22,474 bases of DNA from Chrysochromulina tobinii (taxonomy: Eukaryota > Haptophyta > Prymnesiales > Chrysochromulinaceae), in contig JWZX01002831.1 in assembly GCA_001275005.1 (NCBI GenBank), forward strand, positions 1 to 22,474. The letters are read 5' to 3'. How positions within the stretch are numbered: position 1 is the first letter of the stretch; the number at the start of each line of letters is the position of its first letter. The position numbers and the translations under genes were made by a program. Below the pieces are notes generated by a model, which saw only the letters and a program-made list of their open reading frames with translations, did not search any database and was not told the DNA's origin. Shown here piece after piece: positions 2,114 through 20,900 of the stretch.

Positions 2114-5100
2114 TTAGACCGCGCCGGCTTGGCCCTTGGCGCCGGGCACGCCCTCGAGAAAGTGGTAGACGCCATGCACGGATTTTCCCATCTTCAGCGG
2201 ATCCCCCCTGATATAAGGACCTCCACCTGGCGCAGGACCGCGATTCCATGCCGCCTCCGCAGCCTCGTAGGCTGCCCGGATGGAGAAGGACTTTCGATGC
2301 GCCTCCAGCTCCTTACCGATGAACTCATAGAAGCCCTTTGCAAAGGTGGCGGCGGCGGAGTCCTCGACGGGCGTCGAGTAGGCGATGACCGAGATGTGCG
2401 GGAAGCGCTGGTGGAGCGGCAAGGCGAGCGATTCGTACATCGAGCACGCATTCAGAAAGATGCACTCGAGCGAGTTCTTGATGGGCGTGAGCTTGGCGAT
2501 GAGCTCGATGAACCGTTGCGAATCGAGCTCCATCGCGCGCCCGTCATCATCATCGCCAATAAAGAGCAGCTTGCCCCTCGCGCTCGCCCCCTCGCCGTGG
2601 CCCGAAAAGTGAAGGATGCGGGGCGACAGTCCCACGTCGGAGGCGCCCTTGCCAAACAGGACCTCCTCGACATCCTTCAGGCGCGCCGCCGGGCGCACAT
2701 CACGCTCCGTATGATGGATTGCAAGCATAGTCTCGCGCATCTCCTTATCGAGATTGAGTTGCTGCACCCGTACCTTCTTCTTCTGATTCGGATCGCCCTC
2801 ACGGTCGCGTACGGCGTACATGGGTGCGCAGTAGATGCCGAGCAGTGTGACAGTCTGCATCTCGCGCGTCGACTTCGAAGGCCGAAAGAAGGATTTCTGC
2901 AGGTGGCACAGGCATTGTGTGGGGCAATCGTTGGTATACTCAGTCGCACTCGGTCGCACTCGGTCGCACTCGGCTGCCGTCAGCGGTCGCACTCGCCTGC
3001 AGTAAATCGCGCAGGAGCACGCGCTCGTACGGATCGGCATGCAACATGCTCAGGAGGATCTCTCGCGCGCTCTCGCTCAGCTGCGACGCGTCCAGCCGCT
3101 GCTTGACGATCCCATCGACGATTTTGGCCTGTGTTTCCCACTCAGTGTCACGCACGCCGCCGAGCATCTCGACGGAATCGCCGCTGGAGTCGACTGTCCA
3201 AATTAGGAAACAAGGGCACGGCACAATCCGGGGTCTTTGGGTGAGAGGGCAGCAGGTCCAGGCAGAGGGCCGAGGGAGGCGAGGGATCGAGACCCGGTCA
3301 TTCACAGAGACTCTTGCCGCCTGTGAAGAGCTCGAAGAGCACGAGGCCGCATGCCCACACGTCGACGGCACGAGTCATCATCACGGGCTTGTTGTTCTGC
3401 CTCGCGTAGGCCACTTCGGGGGAGACGTACTCGGGCGTGTAGTTGGGCATAGAATGCTCCGTGTTCTCTTCGACGACTGAGTCGTAGTCGATCAGCCGGA
3501 TTTGATCGGCGATCCGCAGAAAGTGCTGTAGCTTGATGTCCGTGTGCACTTTCATACAGTTCTCATGTAGGGCGTTCACACACTGGAGCAGCTGCCACGC
3601 ATCCGCGCGCTGGTACATGCCGTGCTCGTCGTTCTTGCGAACCTTTGAGATGCTCTCCCCCTTCTCGAGGACGAGCACTCGCTTCCCCTGATGAGGTGGC
3701 TCATTGCATATGAAGTGGTCGAGCAACTGCGGCGCCGTCGATGGCGACTTCTTGTTGAGATCTTCCAGCGTCTTCACCTCGAGCTCGCCCATGGCGAGGC
3801 TTTCAGTCACCTTCACGGCGACGGCCTTGCCGGTCACCAAGTCGTCGGCGATCGCCACGCGCTTCGCATTCGTCACATACTTGGTCAATAAATAAGTGTC
3901 CTTGAACAGCGTACCCGTGCTCACGGCGCCCGGCGCGCGTCGTAGCGCGTCCTGCACCTCGCGCAGGTCGTCGAGCCAATCAATCTTGTCGCGTCCCTGG
4001 CGCAGGAGTATCTGCGCCACTCTCGATTCCGGCCCGGGCACTTCGAGGTGCGTGTGTTTGAGGATGATGAGGCACACCTCGCGATGGTGCTGGGACGGTC
4101 CGGCGAACAGGGCAGTGAGTGGCCACCCGAGGCAATCCGTGGCACGGCACTCGGGGGCTCATAGGCAATCGGTGGCTCTGAGCGAGCATGCAAGAGCAAT
4201 CACCTTCGACGGCCCGGCGAAGATGGCCGCCTCGAGCGCGTTCAGGCACAGGCGCGATTCGCCGTCGGAAGAGGCCGACGGGAGGTCCTCGAAGGAGGAT
4301 GCATGCTGGCTCGAGACCGAGCGTGAGAGCGAGAGCGGCAGCGGCTCAGCGATGCTTCCGAGGCTCTCGTGCCCCGAGCTCGACCTGCGTCTGCTCTTGC
4401 TGAAGCTCTGATCGCGTCGCGGCATGGTCGACTCTCCCTCGCCCTCCGGGGCCACCGACTTGACTGTCTGATCGTCGGGGTCGAGGTTAAGGATCACCCG
4501 CTGCTTCTCAATGTCGCTCTCCTGAAGGCACCAGCATCGGCAATCCGTGTTCATCAGTCGCAATCCACGGCAATCCGTGCCCAATCAGTCGCAATCCGCG
4601 GCAATCTGTGCCCATCAGTCGCAATCCGCGGCAATCCGTGCCCATCAGTCGCAATCCGCGGCAATCTGTGCCAAGCACCTGTACGAGTTCCTTGTCGAAG
4701 AGCGTACGCACAATCGCCGTGATGCCCGCCTGGCATGCGGCCACGAGGAGGGACGCGCCATTCTTGGCGCGCGCGGCCAAGAGCGCGTCGGTCATGGGCT
4801 TATCCTCGCTGTGGAGCACCAGGCACACGCAGCGTGCGATCAGCCGATTGGATGCCTCGGCCTCCTCCTCGGAACGACTCTCTTGCTCGGGAGCGAGCAT
4901 CGCGAGGGTCACTTGGGCCGCGAGCGTGCGTGCCACGCCCTCACTCAGCAGCGGCTGGTCGGTCTCCACGTCGTAGTACCACAACGGCGCGCTACGAGTG
5001 ACGAAACTCGGCTCCTTCGCCTTCGCGCCCTTTGCCCGCTCCGCCCTTTCGGCCTTCGCCACGGCCTTCGCCTTGGCCTCCAGCAGCAGCGGCTCGTGCT

Positions 5101-8014
5101 GATCGTGCTCTGCGGCCGCGGCACGCACCGCCTTCTCGTCGGCCTCGGTCCATTTGGGCAGGAAGAGTTGGAGGGTGGGCAAGTCGCTGAAGCAGTTCGC
5201 CTCGTGCTTCTCAAAGGTGGCCATCACTGGCGCTGCGTCGGGCGCGAGCTCAGGATGGCGCACCGTCCCACGGAGCAGGAGCTGCGGGTGCAGCAGCAGC
5301 TGCGCCACGAGGAGCTCCACGAGCGTGACGCGGAACTGCCAGTCGCTCGAGCGCAGCAAATAGCATTGGTACGCCCGTTGGCAAGGAGTGAGCCCAAAAT
5401 AATCTCGCCACTCGAGGATCTTTCGCAGCTCGGCACGGAGCTCGGCGAGCTTCGTCTTCGTCATGTCCTTCAGCTCGACCGTCGAGGGGAGCAGCTTCCA
5501 AATCTTGTCCAGGTCGGCGTACATCACATCCCAATGCAGCTGCGAGTGCGAGCGCTCGGCGCGCGCAGCTCTGGGATCATCCTTCAATGAGTCGCCACGG
5601 CCTACGGGCCGGCGCATGCCGCCGTCAACGCTGTCGCCAACACCGCCCGGCAGATCGCCGCCAACGCCGGCGCTGGCGCCGACGCCGACGCCGTGACTGC
5701 TGCTCCCGTCCGCGCCGCCCGGGCCCTCCGCAGCGCACCCGGGGAGCTGGAGCTTCACACCAAGCTGCTTCACACCAAACGACGAGGGACGAGCGCGTGC
5801 CGCTGGGCTGGCCGGTATGCTGGCCGGTATGCTGGGCTCCGCCTGGGCTCCACGCCACAGTGATCGCCACCGTGATCGCGGGTGGTCCTTCCAAGCCGGG
5901 CACTCGTAAGCCAGCAACTCCTCAATGTCCGCGGCTTTGGGTAACGAGTCCTGCGCGCCTTCCTTCGAGCACGAGATGACCGCAGCCGCGTGTGCCCAGA
6001 GTAAGCAGCGGATGTTCGAGTGGCCCAGCACCGCTGCGGCAATGAACCCTCCAACGAAGGCGTCGGCCGCACCAATGTTGTCCTTCACCATGTGCTTCGA
6101 TCGCGGGACTACAAGGAGCTCGTCACGCTCCGCGAGCATGCCGCCAGCGCCAGCGCCCTCCTCGTCGTCTTCGCCCTCCTCGCCGCCGCCCTCTGTGATC
6201 GGGCTCGAGGCCGGGCGCGCGAGCGAGCTCATGAGGGCACGATCGAACGAGGTCTGCTGGACGAGGATCCGCTGGGGGCGCGTGGCCACTACGGCCGGGT
6301 CCGCCGCTCGTGGGTTGCCCACCACTACGGCCGTCGGATCCCACCCGACCTTCTTGGTGGCGCCAAACACTGCGCCCGTTTGGGCCCTGTGTCCGCCGCC
6401 GGCACCGGCGCCGCGCCACCGGCCGTTGCCCAGCCACGAATGGCCGCGTCGCTCGCGGAACACGTGCGCGATCGGGCAGGTGATCACGACGGCGCTCAGC
6501 TCCGCCCACTTGGAGAGGATCTCGTCGGCGGCCATCTCGGCGTCCGCGAGCGTCACAACCCGGCGGGCGACCCAGTTCAGAAGGTTGGGCGCGTCGTGCC
6601 CGTCGAGGAAGAGTATGTCGACGGATCGCGAGCCGAGGATGCGAAGTGCCGTATCGAGCGACTCAGAGCCCATGCGCAGAGGGGCCGCTCGGAAGGCGAT
6701 CGTCACGCCGTGCTCATTGGCCGCCTCGATGGCTTTGAGCATCACCTCCGCACGGAGCTCGAGCTGCAGCAGCAGCAGCGGGCCCGACGGATGCGGGCCG
6801 GCATTGGGAGTGCCTGGCACCGCGCCGCTCGGCTTCTGTGCCGCCGCGAAGATGGCGCGAGCGTGCTGCAGCTCGACGAGCCCCACCTCGTAGTTCGCCT
6901 CCGGGCACGTGACGGTGTACTTGACGGTGCCTTTCCCCCGGTGGCCTACGATTTGAACGGCAGTCCCCGTGTTTATCTCCTTCTCGACCGGCACGAAGCG
7001 GCGCTCCTTGCCGTCGCGACACGCCACGCGCACGAAGCAGTTGGAGCCCAAGCCGCCGCCGCCGCCGCCGCCGCCGCCGTCCGCTCCACCAAGATTCCAC
7101 TCGTCGAACTCCTGCTGCGTGATCTGGACGTTCTTCTCGGTGCTCGAGTCGAAACGCTCCCCAAGCACCTCCGCGAGCTTTGGGTGCTCGAGCAGTTGCC
7201 CCTTGCCCTCTACGTCGACCATCTTCCACTCGAGGCCGCGCGTGGCGGCGCGAGCGGCGGCGGCGGCGCCCTCCTCGGTGGCGCCACCGCGCACGGAGGC
7301 CGAGTGCACCGTGTTGCGCCGCAGCTCCTGCTTGAGGGAGTAGCCGAGGTCGTCGTTTCCCACGCGGCCCACGAGCGCCGTCTTCACGCCTAGGCGCGCG
7401 ATCGCGACCGCCTCGTTCATCCCCTTGCCGCCGGGCTGGTGCGAGAGCGATCCAAAGTCGCTCGAGTCCAGAGTTGGCCACTCGCCCATCGCGCGCGCCT
7501 TGATGTCCATGTTGATCGAGCCGAAGACCACCACGTCGATGTCCTCGATCTTCACATCGATGGCCTCTTCGGGCACGCTGTAGTCGGTGGCGGCGCTGCT
7601 GCCGCTGTCCATGCGATGCATTTCGGCTTCCGACCTGCCACTTGACCGACTCGACCAGCGCGAGATCGGGAGTGCGCGCGTGGCTTTCTTGAAGGATGGG
7701 CGCCGCGCGATCGAGAGTGCGCGTGTGACCCGCTGGGAGGATGGGCTGGAGCCACTTGTGTCGCTCGGGCCGGCCTCTGCAAGCGTCAAATAAGGCCTCT
7801 CTGGCGTCTCGTCAACCTCCGTGTTCGCCATCATAGCTGCTGCACTGGGCGCTGGCCGCTCCTCCACGATCAGCCGCGAGCATGTGAGCAGCGGCACGAC
7901 CCACTGCACGAAGCCGAGGAACCACCGGTCAAGCAGCGCTCCAATCCCCGTCGTTGTGGCCAGTCCGGTGAGCGCCCCAACTCGTCTCGACAGCTGCTGC
8001 CAGAGCGACGTCAT
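2114..8014 (-). CDS. PfkB-like / ankyrin-like / protein kinase / CHAT protease fusion protein, 5 exons
   Basis: Spliced product 1805 aa. Exons (minus strand): 8014-4679, 4521-4204, 4089-3306, 3193-2997, 2896-2114; every junction keeps phase. ATG at 8014 is the first ATG in a longer open frame. Residues 30-50 are hydrophobic, a possible membrane anchor. A PfkB/ribokinase-like fold (about 161-700) has VVVFGSINMD, PGGKGMNEAVAIARLG, an NTGTAV strand and DNIGAADAF (Asp651 as candidate catalytic base); two long insertions split it. Residues 702-1080 match nothing I know. Weak ankyrin-like units lie near 1085-1112 and 1206-1230. The kinase domain (about 1285-1535) has VAVKV (Lys1311), VHTDIKLQHF (Asp1402), IDYD (Asp1419), SPE and DVWACGLVLFELF. 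The C-terminal CHAT domain (about 1557-1790) has HFSGHG (His1645) and FLNACS (Cys1696), the expected His-Cys dyad. Family knowledge: CHAT proteases often work as triggered effectors. That kinase and sugar-kinase parts gate the protease is inference. Splitting into two genes is possible but less likely, since exon frames join cleanly. Confidence 0.7.
2897..2996 (-). other. GC-AG intron between kinase and CHAT exons
   Basis: The exon ends ...GATTTACTGCAG and the intron starts GCGAGT; it ends CCACCTGCAG before AAATCC. Phase is 0 on both sides. No GT donor gives an in-frame join. The 100-nt intron carries GAGTGCGACC units: one overlaps the donor, and three more are in tandem (plus-strand 2941-2971). 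It links the kinase C-lobe (RVLLRDLLQ) to the CHAT exon (KSFFRPSK). Confidence 0.7.
3194..3305 (-). other. 112-nt GT-AG intron inside the kinase domain
   Basis: Donor CTCT|GTGAAT and acceptor CTAATTTGGACAG|TCGAC, with a branch-like CTAAT and a pyrimidine-rich stretch. The phase-1 join restores GGKSLF-DSSGD at the end of the kinase large lobe. Confidence 0.8.
4090..4203 (-). other. 114-nt intron with flanking near-repeat, removes an in-frame TGA
   Basis: Donor TCGAAG|GTGATT and acceptor CCGTCCCAG|CACCAT, phase 0. Splicing joins NALEAAIFAGPSK to HHREVCLIILKH, a good ankyrin-like helix pair. Without splicing, a TGA at 4159-4161 interrupts the frame. The last 18 nt of the upstream exon and the last 18 nt of the intron are near-identical (TTCGCCGG-R-CCGTC...AG). 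Confidence 0.65.
4522..4678 (-). other. 157-nt GT-AG intron filled with 30-bp tandem repeats
   Basis: Donor GTACAG|GTGCTT and acceptor GTGCCTTCAG|GAGAGC, phase 0, joining DKELVQ to ESDIEKQR. The reading frame runs on into the repeats for about 50 codons before a stop, which makes the upstream exon look longer than it is. Confidence 0.7.
4540..4672 (+). repeat. 30-bp minisatellite, about 4.4 copies, within an intron
   Basis: The unit is GCAATCCGCGGCAATCCGTG followed by CCCATCAGTC. Copies differ by A/G and C/T changes, and one copy has an extra A (CCCAATCAGTC). Within each unit the GCAATCCG core is itself doubled. Related GGCAATCCGTGGC and GGCAATCGGTGGC cores appear at about 4132 and 4163 in the neighbouring intron. 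Confidence 0.9.
7059..7080 (-). repeat. Poly-glycine coding trinucleotide run
   Basis: A CCG/GGC trinucleotide run encodes a poly-Gly stretch inside the first PfkB insertion, just before GLGSNCFVRVAC. It is likely length-variable and marks a flexible linker. Confidence 0.75.
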
Positions 8015-9444: not shown

Positions 9445-12276
9445 ATGTTGTATTCCCACTCGCTATGTATCGCGACCATCGTCGCGTCCCTCCTGCCCGT
9501 GGCCCGCTCGGGATGCACAGTTTCCAACATCAAGTGCTACGTTGACGACGATCAGCGTGTCCTGGCAGCCAAGCAGGCTCAAGACGGGGCGGTGACCCAA
9601 GAGTGGTGTGCGAGCTACTGTCACGTGAACAACTACAAAGTTGCGGGCGTGGAGGCCGGCGATCAGTGCTTCTGCGCCGACAAGCTGCGAGACGATGCTC
9701 GAGCCGCCTCCGCCGGTGACTGCTCCGAAACCTGCAGTGCCGACCCCGACGAGGCGTGCGGCGGCCAATGGCGCATCGGCGTGTTCGAAGTCAACTGCTC
9801 AGGTGCTCCCATACCGCGGCCAAAGTCGCCGCCGTACCTCAACAACCCGTGCCAAAACGCGAGCTCGCCGCAGTTTTCGCTGCCCTGGTGCAACTCCACG
9901 CTGCCCATCGACGATCGCGTCCGCGACATGGTCTCGCGCCTCACGCTCGCCGAGAAGATCGATGCGCTCGACACCACGCAAAAGTCGCTCAAGTCGCTCG
10001 GGCTGAACCCGTACAATTGGTGGTCGGAGGGGACGCACGGCATCTCGCACGTGCGCAACGACGAGACCACGCCCTACGAGACCAACACGGCCTTCCCCAT
10101 CACGACCGCCATGTCCTTCAACCGGTCGTTGTGGAAAGCGACCGGTAGCCTGATCGGTCGTGAGGCCCGAGCCTTCATGAACGCGGGTAACGCGTGGTCG
10201 ACCTACTGGGCGCCGGTGATCAACCTGGCGCGCGAGCCGCGCTGGGGGCGCAACATCGAGACGCCCGGCGAGGACCCGTACCTGACAGGCGAGTATGCGA
10301 CCGCCTTCGTGACCGGCTTTGAGACGTCCGAGGACGACCCCAAGTACATCCAGGCACGTCGCGTCTGATGGCGCGCCTGATGGCGTCTGATTGCGTCCGG
10401 TGGACCTGGATCGCATACGAGTCGCCCCAACCACCTCCAGGCATGCCCCCTCCGCTAACCTCTCTGGTGTGTCTCTGGTGTGGTGTCGGTGCAGGCGAGC
10501 GCGTGCTGCAAGCACTACGTGGCCAACTCGATGGACTCGTCGACGGTGGCAGGCGAGCATCACGAGCGCTACGAGTTCAACGCGAACGTGACCGACCAGG
10601 ACCTAGTCGACTCGTATCTGCTCCCCTTCCAGGCGTGCGTCGAGAAGGGCCATGTGTCGGGCCTGATGTGCTCGTACAACGCAGTCAACGGCGTGCCCTC
10701 GTGCGCGAACACGTGGCTACTCCAGACCGTCGCGCGCGACGCGTGGGGCTTCGACGGTTACATTACGAGCGACTGCGATGCCGACGCGAATGTGTACGAT
10801 GCGCACCACTACACGAAGACGCCCGAGGAGGCAGTGGCGGCCGTGCTGCATGCGGGCACTGACGTGGACTGCACGTCTTTTGTGGGCGAGCACGCGCAGA
10901 AGGCGCTCGACCAGAAGCTGATCACCGAGGCCGACATCGACAAGCGCCTGTTCTACCTCTTCCGCGTGCGCATGCGGCTCGCCCACTTCGATCCGCCGTC
11001 GGCGCTCACCCGCATCCCGCCCTCCGCCGCGTGCACCGACGCTCATAAGGAGGCGGCGCGCGACGGCGTGCGCCAGAGTGTGACGATGCTCAAGAATGTT
11101 GCAACCCGGCTGCCGCTCTCCGCCGGCGCGATCCAGACCATTGCCGTCCTTGGCCCGGTGGCCAACCTCTCCACCGACATCGCGGGCTACTACGGCGGCA
11201 ACAACTGCAACGACGACTATCCCAATATGGTCGATGCAATCGCCGAGGTGGTCCCCCATACACTGACGGCGATGGGTGTGAAAGACGTCAAGACGGATGA
11301 CGAGAGTGGTATCCCGGATGCGGTGGCGAAGGCCAAGGCGGCTGACGTCGTCGTACTCTGCCTGGGCACGGACCTCTCGTTGGCCAGCGAGGGCAACGAT
11401 GCCGTCGACATCACCTTCTCGAAGGGGCAACTCGCGCTGCTCGCGCAGGTGACGGCCGCCGTCGAGAAGCCCGTCATCGTCCTCACGTTCACCGCCACGC
11501 CGCTCGACCTCACGCCGCTCCTGACGAACCCAAAGGTCGGCGCCCTGGTTCACGTGGGCCAGCCGTCGGTGCAGACTCGCGGCGTGGCTGACGTGCTCTT
11601 CGGGCACCGGTCGCCGGGGGGACGCACGATCCAGACCGTGTACCCCGGGAGCTACCAGCATGAGATCTCGATCTTCGACTTCAACATGCGCCCGGGGCCC
11701 TCGGTCTGGGCGCGGCCTGACTGCCCGGCAGGCACACCCACCGCCGAGTGTCCCCGGGGCACCAACCCGGGGCGCACGTACCGCTTCTACACGGGCGATG
11801 CAGTGATCCCCTTCGGGTTCGGCCTCTCGTACACCACGTTCACGTACAAGATCAGCGCGTCGCCCGCGAGCCTCTCGCTCACGCCCCTGCGCGCGCTGCT
11901 CCGCGAGACGTACAGCACGACCGGCACGCACTTCCCGCGCCTGAACGACGTGCCCCAGGCCGTCGGGTACCAGGTGACCGTGACCAACACGGGCAACGTC
12001 GACGCGGACGACGCGGTGCTCGGATTCCTCACGCCGCCCAACGCGGGCAAGGACGGCATGCCGATCAAGACCCTCTTTGGCTTCGAGCGCGTGCACGTCA
12101 AGGCGGGCGAGTCGGTCACCGTGTGGCTCTACCCGAGCATGACTGACTTTGCGTTCGCCAACATCAAGGGCGAGCGCGTCGCCGTGGCGGGCACGTACAC
12201 CGTGAGCTTTGGCGTGCGCGAGACCGCCGCCCTTGGCATGGGCTACGTCGAGGCGACGCTCGAGGCGCGTGACTGA
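9445..12276 (+). CDS. Secreted WSC-domain GH3 beta-xylosidase-like glycoside hydrolase, 2 exons
   Basis: Exons 9445-10353 and 10495-12276 give 896 aa. Residues 1-22 form a signal peptide (hydrophobic IATIVASLLPVA). Residues 24-118 are a WSC domain with ten cysteines (CASYC, GDQCFCADK, CSETC, NC), a putative carbohydrate-binding module. The rest is a plant-type GH3 enzyme like BXL beta-D-xylosidases and alpha-L-arabinofuranosidases: PYNWWSEGTHGISHV, NLAREPRWGRNIETPGEDPYL, CCKHYVANSMD, MCSYNAVNGVPSC and YITSDCDAD, where Asp396 is the expected nucleophile. The second GH3 subdomain follows (VAVLGPVAN-like ATIAVLGPVANLS region, LGTDLSLASEGND). A fibronectin-III-like C-terminus is recognisable from YQVTVTNTGNVDADD and FGVRE. 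It probably acts in the secretory pathway or outside the cell on xylan- or arabinan-like glycans; substrate is inferred from family resemblance. The intron 10354-10494 is GC-AG, joining KYIQ to ASACCKHY in phase 0. Confidence 0.9.
10354..10494 (+). other. 141-nt GC-AG intron in the GH3 gene
   Basis: Donor ATCCAG|GCACGT and acceptor GTCGGTGCAG|GCGAGC, with a clear CTAAC branch site at about 10455. Only this join yields the conserved GH3 CCKHY motif in frame. Next to the donor are imperfect GCG(T/C)CTGATG repeats at about 10361-10400. Confidence 0.85.
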
Positions 12277-17951: not shown

Positions 17952-20900
17952 ATGTCTTCCAAGCCTTCCAGGCCGTCGTCAGCAGGCTCGGCGAGCAAGC
18001 CATGGGAAGGACAGCTCGCAGGCCTCGCCAACGTTCTTAGCGACTCTCAGCATGCCACCCTCGATCTCGCGGTGCCTCCGCAGCCTGCGCCCGTGCCATG
18101 CTATGCGCAGCCCAAGCGGCCACACCCTCCTATGCCACCCACCATCCTCTTGGCATCGGCCACCGCAGATCAGACTCGCGTACGAGTGCTCTCGCCGCGC
18201 ATGCAGCTCGTCGTCAAAGCCGCCGCCGCCGTCGCTGCGAATCACGTGAGGAGTGTGGTGCACGTGCGAGGCGTGCGCGAGGCGCAACGGACCGCGCGGC
18301 CGTCGAGCGCTCCCGTCTCGAGGGAGCCCCCATCGTCGCACGTGCCCGCAGCTGCCCGCACCGCCGCCGAGGCGGCCGCCGCGCCGGCGCCGGCTGACAG
18401 CGGCCAGCTCGGCCAGCTCGTCGTCGGCCAGTTCGGCCATCACCTGCCCGCCACCGCCCGCACGAGCGGCGAGCACCAGCGCCTATGGAAGCACAAGTGG
18501 CGCTCGAAGCAGAGCGCGCGCGATCGGGGCGACGCGCAGTTTTTCGAGCAGGTCAAGGCGCTGACAGACAGGGACACTCAGATCAGGGGTAGCCAGTATT
18601 CGGCCTTCCGCGACTTGGGCAACGAGCGGCAGAACGAGCTGCTGCTGCTGCAGAGCGAGCTGCAGCTGCTGCGCCAGCAGGTGCGCGCGGATGGTGGAGA
18701 GAGCGAGAGGCAGCATGCGCGCATCGCCGAGCTCGAGCAGCAAGCGTCACTCGCCGAGGCACAGGCCGAGGACGAGGAGGAGTATACCCTATGCGTGCAG
18801 TACATGCGTGCGCGTCTGTCGAAGCGGCGGCCTCACCTCGAGAAACGCCTCGCCTTCCTTCGCTCGAAGCTGATCGTGGCGGCGGTGGACCACCAGAGGC
18901 TCAAGGAGGTGATGGAGGTCGCGCTCGCGTACGAAGGACGCATCGCCGAGCAGCTCGTCGAAGCAAAGGAGCGTGCTGCTGCACAGCGCGTCGCCAACGA
19001 CGAGCGTCGCAACAAGCTGCGGGATGAGCTAGCGGACTCGAGTACAGCGCGTCGAGTGCGCCAGATCGAGGCGATGAAGCAGCGCCCAGGTGGTGCGAAT
19101 GAGCTGGTGATGGCCGGTCTGAAGCAGATGGTGCAGCTCGAGCACCACGAGGGGCGGGTGAGTGAAATATGAGTGCCCTCTGAGTGCCCTCTGAGTGACC
19201 TTTGTGTGCCCTGTGAGTGCCCTCTGAGTGACCTCTGAGTGCCCTCCGAGTGCCTTCGAGTACCTCTGAGTGTCCCTCGTGGAGCATCTCGATGCATCTC
19301 GATGGCCAGGTCGACCTGGCCCACGACCAGGAGCGCGCGGCGCGCAAGGCGGATGCAAAGTACGAGGCGGGAATGGCGCAGGCCGAAGCACGCCGAAAGG
19401 AGAGTTGCGTCTCGCCGGTGCTCCATATGCAGCAGAGGCAAGCGGGGCATAAGAAGGAGGCGTGGGAGAAGCTGTGCGTGATCGCGGACAGCGAGTCGCT
19501 CAAGGGCGTGCTCGAGTTTTGGGAGGAGAGTGTGGACACGCGCGCGACGCTTGACCAGCTCGAAAACGACCGCTCGTTCAACAAGCAGTTCTTCATCAAC
19601 CAGCTGGGCAAGCTCGAGGCGACGCTGCACGACCAGCGCGAGTCGAACACAGAGGCGCGCAAGGCTTTCGACGACCATCTGGATGCGATCGCGCGCAAGC
19701 ACGCTGCCGCCCTCGACCTCGTGCGGGTGTGGACGCGCCGTTGTGAGCGCATCGAGACCCTCTCAAATGACGCCAGCACGATCCTCAACCGCGTGGCGGT
19801 GGCGCTGACGAGTGCCGCGGTGGTGGAGCGCGTGCCCTATGCAGCGTCCAAAGAGCTACGCACCAAGGGGAGGTCGATCGATGAGATGGCCCAGGCGCTC
19901 GTGGTGCTCAGTGCGCCTACCGTTGCCAAGGTGGCCCGGTTCAGCCTCTCGGAGGTCGCGCTCGAGACGCGGGGTGAGGCTGATGACGTGGAGAGGAGGA
20001 GCGACGAGGGCGACGACGGCGACGCGAAGAGCGACACGGGCAACGGGAGCCACGTGGAGAGCGAGGGGGGGAAGGCCCGAAGTCAACTCTCAGATCGGCA
20101 GAGCTTCGTCGGCAAGAAGGCGCGACAGTCGGAGGTGCACTCCGAGTCGGGAGCGAAATCGACGACCAGCTCAACGACAAGGCGGAGCCGCCGCGCCACC
20201 TTCTCGGAGAAGCAGCCGGCCATGTCGGAGTATTCGAGAGGGAGCGGCAACGGTCGTCCCACACGAGATGGCACCTTGTACTCGGCGAGTGTGTACGGCG
20301 GTGGGCGCAACCCCTCCACCCAGGTGCGTCAGGCGCGCATCCCCGTGGGCGTCCAGATCCTCCTCGGCATGTTGGGCGATGACGAAGTGGGCGCCCAAGA
20401 CGGCGCTCCCAAGCGCGTGCGTGTACGTGAGGAGGATCTCCTGTCTGCCCAAGCGACACTCCTGTCGGGCACGTGCGAGTTTGGTCTAGGTGTGCTGCTC
20501 GAGCAGATGAGAGAAGACGTGAGCGACGAGGCGCTTGCGACCGCGCAGCCGCCCGCGCCGGCGCTCGTGCAGATCGATGGCAAGGGACAGAAGACGCTCT
20601 CGACGAACATGCGCCTGCCCATGCATCTGCCCCACAGGGAGCTCGTCGAGGCGGAGCGCAAGCTCGCGCAGCTGCTGCACTCGAACACCGCCGCCGACGA
20701 GAGCTCGCCCCTCGGGCTGACTACCAGCGAGGCCGAGAGGAATGCGCTGCGCGACGAGATGCGACATGCGATGCAACAGGAAGAGGCGCGCCTTCGAGCC
20801 CTCGAGGAAGCCGAGCGGGCGGCCGAGGAGGCCGAGGAGGCCGAGATCGCCGCCGAGATTGCCGCCGAAGCCAAACGGTCGCTCGAAGAGGCGGAGGAGG

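Follow-up and report, generated by a model that had tools for sequence, protein, structure and literature searches.

Our analysis of one whole contig (C1673, 22,474 bases; hereafter "the window") finds on its minus strand a gene whose five exons, running from 8014 to 2114, splice into a frame of 1,805 amino acids (AAs), in which a PfkB/ribokinase domain is followed by a degenerate ankyrin region, a protein kinase and a CHAT domain. By its sequence the PfkB-ankyrin half of this protein belongs to a protist family of PfkB-ankyrin-TIR proteins, and the TIR domain of its ancestor was most likely replaced by the kinase-CHAT end. The four introns (157, 114, 112 and 100 nucleotides (nt)) have phases 0, 0, 1 and 0, which preserve the frame; introns 1–3 have GT-AG splice sites and intron 4 is GC-AG. 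An original prediction made from these DNA letters had proposed five exons with phase-compatible junctions, and they are present; introns 1 and 3 are absent from a close homologue (below). The parts of the gene are as follows:

4679–8014, minus strand: exon 1 (AAs 1–1112), with a leader, PfkB with insertions, the first ankyrin-like block, a linker and the start of the second block
5900–7543, minus strand: PfkB/ribokinase-like domain (AAs about 158–705), from Pfam, motifs and a structure model
5240–5527, minus strand: first ankyrin-like block (FGLTPCQRAYQC; AAs about 830–925), from the relatives' profile and BLAST to P0007
4522–4678, minus strand: intron 1, GT-AG, phase 0, containing a 30-bp minisatellite
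4204–4521, minus strand: exon 2 (AAs 1113–1218), an insertion of low complexity together with part of the second ankyrin-like block
4090–4203, minus strand: intron 2, GT-AG, phase 0, with an in-frame stop codon in the window
3306–4089, minus strand: exon 3 (AAs 1219–1479), the end of the second ankyrin-like block and then most of the protein kinase
3194–3305, minus strand: intron 3, GT-AG, phase 1
2997–3193, minus strand: exon 4 (AAs 1480–1545), the kinase C-terminal lobe
2897–2996, minus strand: intron 4, GC-AG, phase 0, the sole link of the kinase and CHAT frames
2114–2896, minus strand: exon 5 (AAs 1546–1805), the CHAT caspase-like domain, stop codon included

The spliced protein matches the Pfam models PfkB (5.6e-27), Pkinase (1.3e-20, residues 1381–1549) and CHAT (6.1e-7; 4.9e-8 on the exon 5 frame). 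The kinase match improves from 5.9e-15 on the exon 3 frame alone (3298–4158) when the exons are joined, and so supports intron 3. The fusion from PfkB to CHAT is very probably real as a predicted gene model, being firm from PfkB to kinase and probable from kinase to CHAT. The firm part is seen in the JGI protein P0001 (1,651 AAs, from a 5,665-base contig that may be genomic or RNA-derived; 83% identity over 86% of the query), which runs in one open frame from the window's start methionine through PfkB and the ankyrin-like region to the kinase. It has neither intron 1 nor intron 3, its sequence being joined precisely where those splices are predicted (junction residues LFDKGLIQ/ESDVEEQ and FTGGQSL/FDSSGDS, respectively) and reads in frame through intron 2, where the window has its stop codon. 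Its frame then enters intron 4 and departs from the CHAT frame, and its DNA matches the window as far as 2680, about 217 nt into the CHAT exon. P0002 (96% identity, 23 member sequences), which covers PfkB as far as the intron 2 stop, and P0003 (87% identity, PfkB to intron 1) agree with P0001, so one frame is conserved from PfkB to kinase and the assembly is very unlikely to be chimeric. The homologous domains are thus not always separate genes. As to the same domain order elsewhere, P0001 has PfkB-ankyrin-kinase in frame, and the 11 other relatives described below show neither kinase nor CHAT.

The PfkB identification holds on Pfam and on motifs, since PGGKGMN (GGKGxN) and GAADAF (with the catalytic Asp of GAxD) are retained, and ribokinases are the best match to a structure model of AAs 157–1112 (9zpu, TMt 0.82–0.85). 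The ATP-site motifs of ribokinases, NxxE and the TLGxxG loop, are gone and read DGHD and TCPIAH. With this loss the product is not classed as an active ribokinase, and of the sugar- or nucleoside-kinase-like sensor module first proposed the fold survives without those motifs; "metabolite sensing" by PfkB may be ligand binding or decoy recognition, not catalysis. Plant FLN1 and FLN2 (PDB 8xzv, 8w9z) are likewise PfkB folds, serving roles other than sugar phosphorylation, but they are part of a plastid transcription complex and have no effector domain.

The ankyrin-like helix pairs were upheld by homology to the post-PfkB region of relatives and not by Pfam, so the label "ankyrin-like" is backed by homology alone. 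A profile of that region from 10 relatives gives the window protein 37.8 bits (E 1.4e-11 in a set of 321 sequences; highest of 200 shuffled controls 3.1 bits), and the match takes in the FGLTPCQRAYQC block as well as the beginning of the second one; the exon 2 part of the second block is assigned by alignment with P0007 and a weak BLAST stretch. When the profile is cut before TIR (the cut for P0007 still includes a few TIR residues), the window retains 34.9 bits (E 2e-10; shuffles reach 2.7 bits at most), the TIR-locus frames L035 and L028 drop out of the listing, and L037 (23.5 bits) is the sole frame above 5 bits besides the window and P0007.

The family comprises 11 relatives of the N-terminal half (P0004–P0007 and P0009–P0015). 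P0004, which comes from EukProt and combines PfkB, ankyrin repeats and TIR, surfaced in a search with the whole window protein; P0005, P0006 and P0009–P0015 came from a search with P0004 and then with a five-member alignment; and P0007 is a single 1,505-codon frame of the same genome as the window, in which PfkB and ankyrin are matched and TIR weakly so. In these three protein searches only the 7,994–7,996 candidates with the most shared words were scored, so a protein missing from the results may still exist in nature. By Pfam, TIR is above the cut-off in nine of the 11 (barely in P0011), weak in P0007 (E 0.0028) and not matched in P0006, and 10 of the 11 have a C-x-x-E motif at the place where TIR enzymes have their catalytic Glu. 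Neither Pfam nor phmmer with the window's kinase and CHAT finds a kinase or CHAT in any of them. They do not represent 11 independent lineages, as P0009 shares 79% identity with P0005 and P0012 lies close to P0013. The window protein shares with P0004, P0005, P0007 and P0009–P0015 the PfkB domain, an ankyrin-like block followed by an FG.TP.QRA-like motif, a second ankyrin block and an effector-type domain towards the C-terminus. It differs from them in its kinase-CHAT in place of TIR (no C-terminal TIR match in Pfam up to E = 1), its weaker ankyrin signal and its large PfkB insertions. The architecture that the original prediction could not place is thus not an isolated one, as its front half is common to the PfkB-ankyrin-TIR proteins.

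In the second of two PfkB trees the window groups with P0006 and P0007 (support 86.8/92) and P0011 (95.2/92), inside the family, and trees constrained to place its PfkB outside, whether as sister or with the others, are rejected (approximately unbiased (AU) p = 0.009). The outgroups were P0016–P0018, which have no ankyrin or TIR, and the genome's other PfkBs were represented by seven rows (L009–L014, and L016, mostly gaps; the fragment L015 was dropped); of the genome's 18 PfkB matches, the comparison drew on these rows, the window and P0007. The first tree includes P0001 and P0003 with a faulty alignment around the PfkB insertion, and the second excludes both. An ordinary metabolic PfkB fused by chance was considered and rejected, as the window groups with the PfkB-ankyrin-TIR proteins and not with the genome's other PfkBs or P0016–P0018. 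It is because the window PfkB nests inside the family that we read the TIR as the part that was replaced; the simplest history would have PfkB-ankyrin-TIR first and kinase-CHAT substituted for TIR later, a polarity that presumes that the members' TIRs are homologous. GAADAF was also tried as a family mark and rejected, since the motif reads GAGD in P0007 and in the first of the two P0010 PfkBs, while the bacterial P0017 shows GAAD. P0010 (EukProt, 1,695 AAs) has tandem PfkB and ankyrin regions twice, then TIR, and P0007 and P0011 have, as recognised by eye, an IQ-like (calmodulin-binding) motif directly before PfkB.

The CHAT domain and its His-Cys dyad were both confirmed. His1645 (window 2599–2597) and Cys1696 (2446–2444) are intact, the two residues are invariant in all seven aligned CHAT sequences, and the structure model has a caspase-type fold whose best match, SAVED-CHAT (PDB 8tl0), lies well above Raptor and separase, so CHAT is a predicted cysteine protease. 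SAVED-CHAT is an antiviral protease, and in bacterial antiviral systems (TIR-SAVED) the SAVED sensor type is found with either TIR or CHAT. It is the closest solved structure to the window CHAT, but the window protein has no SAVED match and has PfkB-ankyrin instead, as well as an inserted kinase fold. The genome (53.15 Mb searched, 2,253 contigs) has no close paralogue of the CHAT exon beyond the window itself, and none of the kinase exon, for which it gives only kinases at 3e-5 or weaker. As for the "kinase in the middle", the Pkinase match and the exon 3 motifs (VAVKV, HTDIKLQH, DYD, SPE, DVWACG) place it there, with its catalytic function in doubt: the Lys of VAVKV, HTD and the Asp of DYD are retained, the DFG position reads DYD, the catalytic-loop Asn is His and no glycine loop is recognisable, so that the kinase is probably weak or inactive. 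HTD was dropped as a mark of a dead kinase, as Sky1, an active kinase, also has it.

The genome has 10 CHAT matches, nine of them outside this gene, and the frames of seven loci were scanned (at L001 two scanned frames are on the strand opposite its CHAT match). CHAT occurs with NB-ARC or NACHT above the Pfam cut-off at L002 and L004 and with weaker nucleoside triphosphatase (NTPase) matches at L003, and is alone at L005 and L006; L008 has NB-ARC in the frame scan, its CHAT being seen only in the genome CHAT search. L002, L004, L008 and, more weakly, L003 are NLR-like proteins, and the genome is probably that of a microalga. Like the window protein, these (L003 less clearly) have CHAT in a large sensor-type protein, but with a STAND-type NTPase in place of PfkB. 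Intracellular immune receptors are known mostly as STAND NTPases with swappable effectors. The window protein has the NLR-like trait of a repeat scaffold (repeats by homology only) with a separable effector, and no Pfam match to NB-ARC, NACHT or a related NTPase up to E = 1; because a STAND NTPase is absent it is not filed as an NLR. Adjoining same-strand frames at L028 (565–3252) and L006 (1333–2862; both on G000:C1172) contain a CHAT-like part (by eye), TIR and CHAT, and perhaps form one CHAT-TIR-CHAT gene.

Taken together, we read the product as a one-chain, receptor-like sensor-protease of effector-swap origin, with an autoinhibited CHAT and a defence or cell-death output, and give this reading a probability of about 0.55. 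The PfkB fold and the two ankyrin-like blocks would be a sensor and scaffold inherited from the PfkB-ankyrin-TIR family, the ancestor's TIR having been exchanged for a protein-kinase fold that leads straight into a CHAT cysteine protease. In the resting state CHAT would be kept inactive by the scaffold together with the kinase fold, itself probably weak or non-catalytic. A nucleoside- or sugar-like ligand, or a foreign protein docking on the PfkB or ankyrin surface, might then rearrange or multimerise the chain, the kinase fold, perhaps structural only, would relay the change, and the CHAT dyad would be switched on to cleave a host protein and so bring about a defence or cell-death response. 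Gene structure, PfkB-ankyrin family membership, effector swap, and CHAT dyad and fold were computed; from these we infer autoinhibition, ligand, oligomerisation, substrate and the immune or cell-death role. The immune reading is favoured because the relatives have TIR, largely an immune domain, at the same position, because CHAT is matched best by an antiviral protease, because other CHAT proteins of the genome join STAND-type NTPases, and because CHAT-like, TIR and CHAT frames stand in a row at one locus.

Several observations weigh against this reading. The PfkB-ankyrin model is weak outside the PfkB core (predicted local distance difference test (pLDDT) 51), the CHAT model is moderate (pLDDT 62), and no Pfam ankyrin model matches the window protein up to E = 1. 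The uncut post-PfkB profile scores TIR-locus frames as highly as the window (L035 39.4 and L028 39.3 vs 37.8 bits). The family node has a Shimodaira-Hasegawa-like approximate likelihood ratio test/ultrafast bootstrap (SH-aLRT/UFBoot) support of 99.9/77 in the second tree and a UFBoot of 83 in the first, and some relatives are incomplete: P0009 begins inside PfkB, and P0006 looks to have run into an intron after its second TIR-like start, so that the domains seen in these two may be only part of their content. The kinase-CHAT link is a single predicted GC-AG splice, and the P0001 gene call has no in-frame CHAT. None of the 10 other scanned frames of the window resembles an immune partner; a gasdermin search of the genome gave no match, which is uninformative as its control matched nowhere. 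One alternative is that there are two adjacent genes, of which the PfkB-ankyrin-kinase gene would end near 2990 and the CHAT gene would have its own start at Met1558 (2860–2858); we think this quite improbable. The P0001 protein does terminate out of frame past intron 4, GC-AG is the rarer intron type and exon 5 has an in-frame ATG shortly upstream of the first CHAT strand, but the frames are only 100 nt apart, the donor context (CAG/GCGAGT) is good and phase-compatible, the kinase match crosses the 1545/1546 junction and completes the Pfam profile at residue 1549, and the contig apparently has a second GC-AG intron (10354–10494). That the gene is decaying or an assembly artefact, as its degenerate kinase and PfkB motifs and its minisatellite intron might suggest, is very improbable, as P0001 (83%), P0002 (96%) and P0003 (87%), from other sources, preserve frame and order where they overlap it.

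A non-immune metabolic or stress regulator is the other alternative, one that we consider unlikely though less so than the two just discussed. In it PfkB would bind or phosphorylate a sugar or nucleoside and CHAT would be a housekeeping protease or scaffold, likened to separase or the caspase-like domain of Raptor. Set against it are the lost NxxE and ATP loop, the TIR of the relatives in the position of kinase-CHAT, and a SAVED-CHAT match that far exceeds Raptor and separase. The sensor-protease reading can be carried further, tentatively and with less than even confidence, in that PfkB-ankyrin proteins could be an unnamed class of protist intracellular immune receptors with a ribokinase fold replacing the STAND NTPase and an exchangeable C-terminal effector, an exchange of TIR for kinase-CHAT being recorded in the window gene. 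The ribokinase fold may then sense what TIR enzymes of the same cell produce, such as nucleoside- or ADP-ribose-like molecules, with TIR members signalling and the CHAT member executing.

Parallels exist in other organisms. According to a review on fungi, gasdermin-controlling proteases (S8 or CHAT) occur in NLRs or fused to ANK, WD40 or TPR or to kinase-like domains (PMC12881547; see also PMC10197012). The fungal CHAT-NLRs and CHAT fusions are alike in joining protease effectors to ankyrin or kinase-like domains; they differ in having gasdermin neighbours, which the window has not among the frames scanned, and in that the passages on them note no PfkB (PMC12881547). In bacterial conflict systems, PMC10907252 describes one target protein with both CHAT and TIR, and protein kinase domains are also annotated. 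Open-licence full text (few subscription journals, no preprints) yielded no papers on PfkB-Ank-TIR or PfkB-CHAT proteins. Kinase-CHAT or Ank-CHAT by itself would thus be of an already known type, and what appears new is the PfkB scaffold and the TIR-to-CHAT exchange upon it. If correct, this would extend modular receptor evolution to a protist family with a sugar-kinase fold instead of a STAND NTPase, would be a natural domain-swap experiment in which one kind of sensor bears either TIR or CHAT, and would provide a candidate trigger of programmed cell death in a unicellular alga, a long-standing question for blooms and viruses.

The introns have some features of their own. The four introns (483 nt) contain 15 copies of the pentamer GATTG (10, 3, 1 and 1), against four copies in all 5,418 nt of the five exons, a mild support for the introns as most copies sit in the intron 1 minisatellite; one copy begins 24–48 nt upstream of the 3' splice site in each of the four, perhaps as a branch-site-like or introner-derived motif. 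The minisatellite has a different copy number in P0002 and is absent in P0001, so introns vary among the relatives. The 3' end of intron 2 duplicates the last part of exon 2 (TTCGCCGG.CCGTC; window 4090–4221), which might suggest a small tandem duplication as the origin of the intron. An 11/33-bp tandem repeat at 19159–19278, between two long plus-strand frames of the window, is probably another minisatellite intron, and the apparent GC-AG intron at 10354–10494 lies in a WSC-GH3 gene (CAG/GCACGT ... GTGCAG/GCG). Elsewhere in the genome, Pfam finds PfkB in one frame with beta-lactamase (L054, 3860–6520) and with myo-inositol-1-phosphate synthase (L052, 3510–6302).
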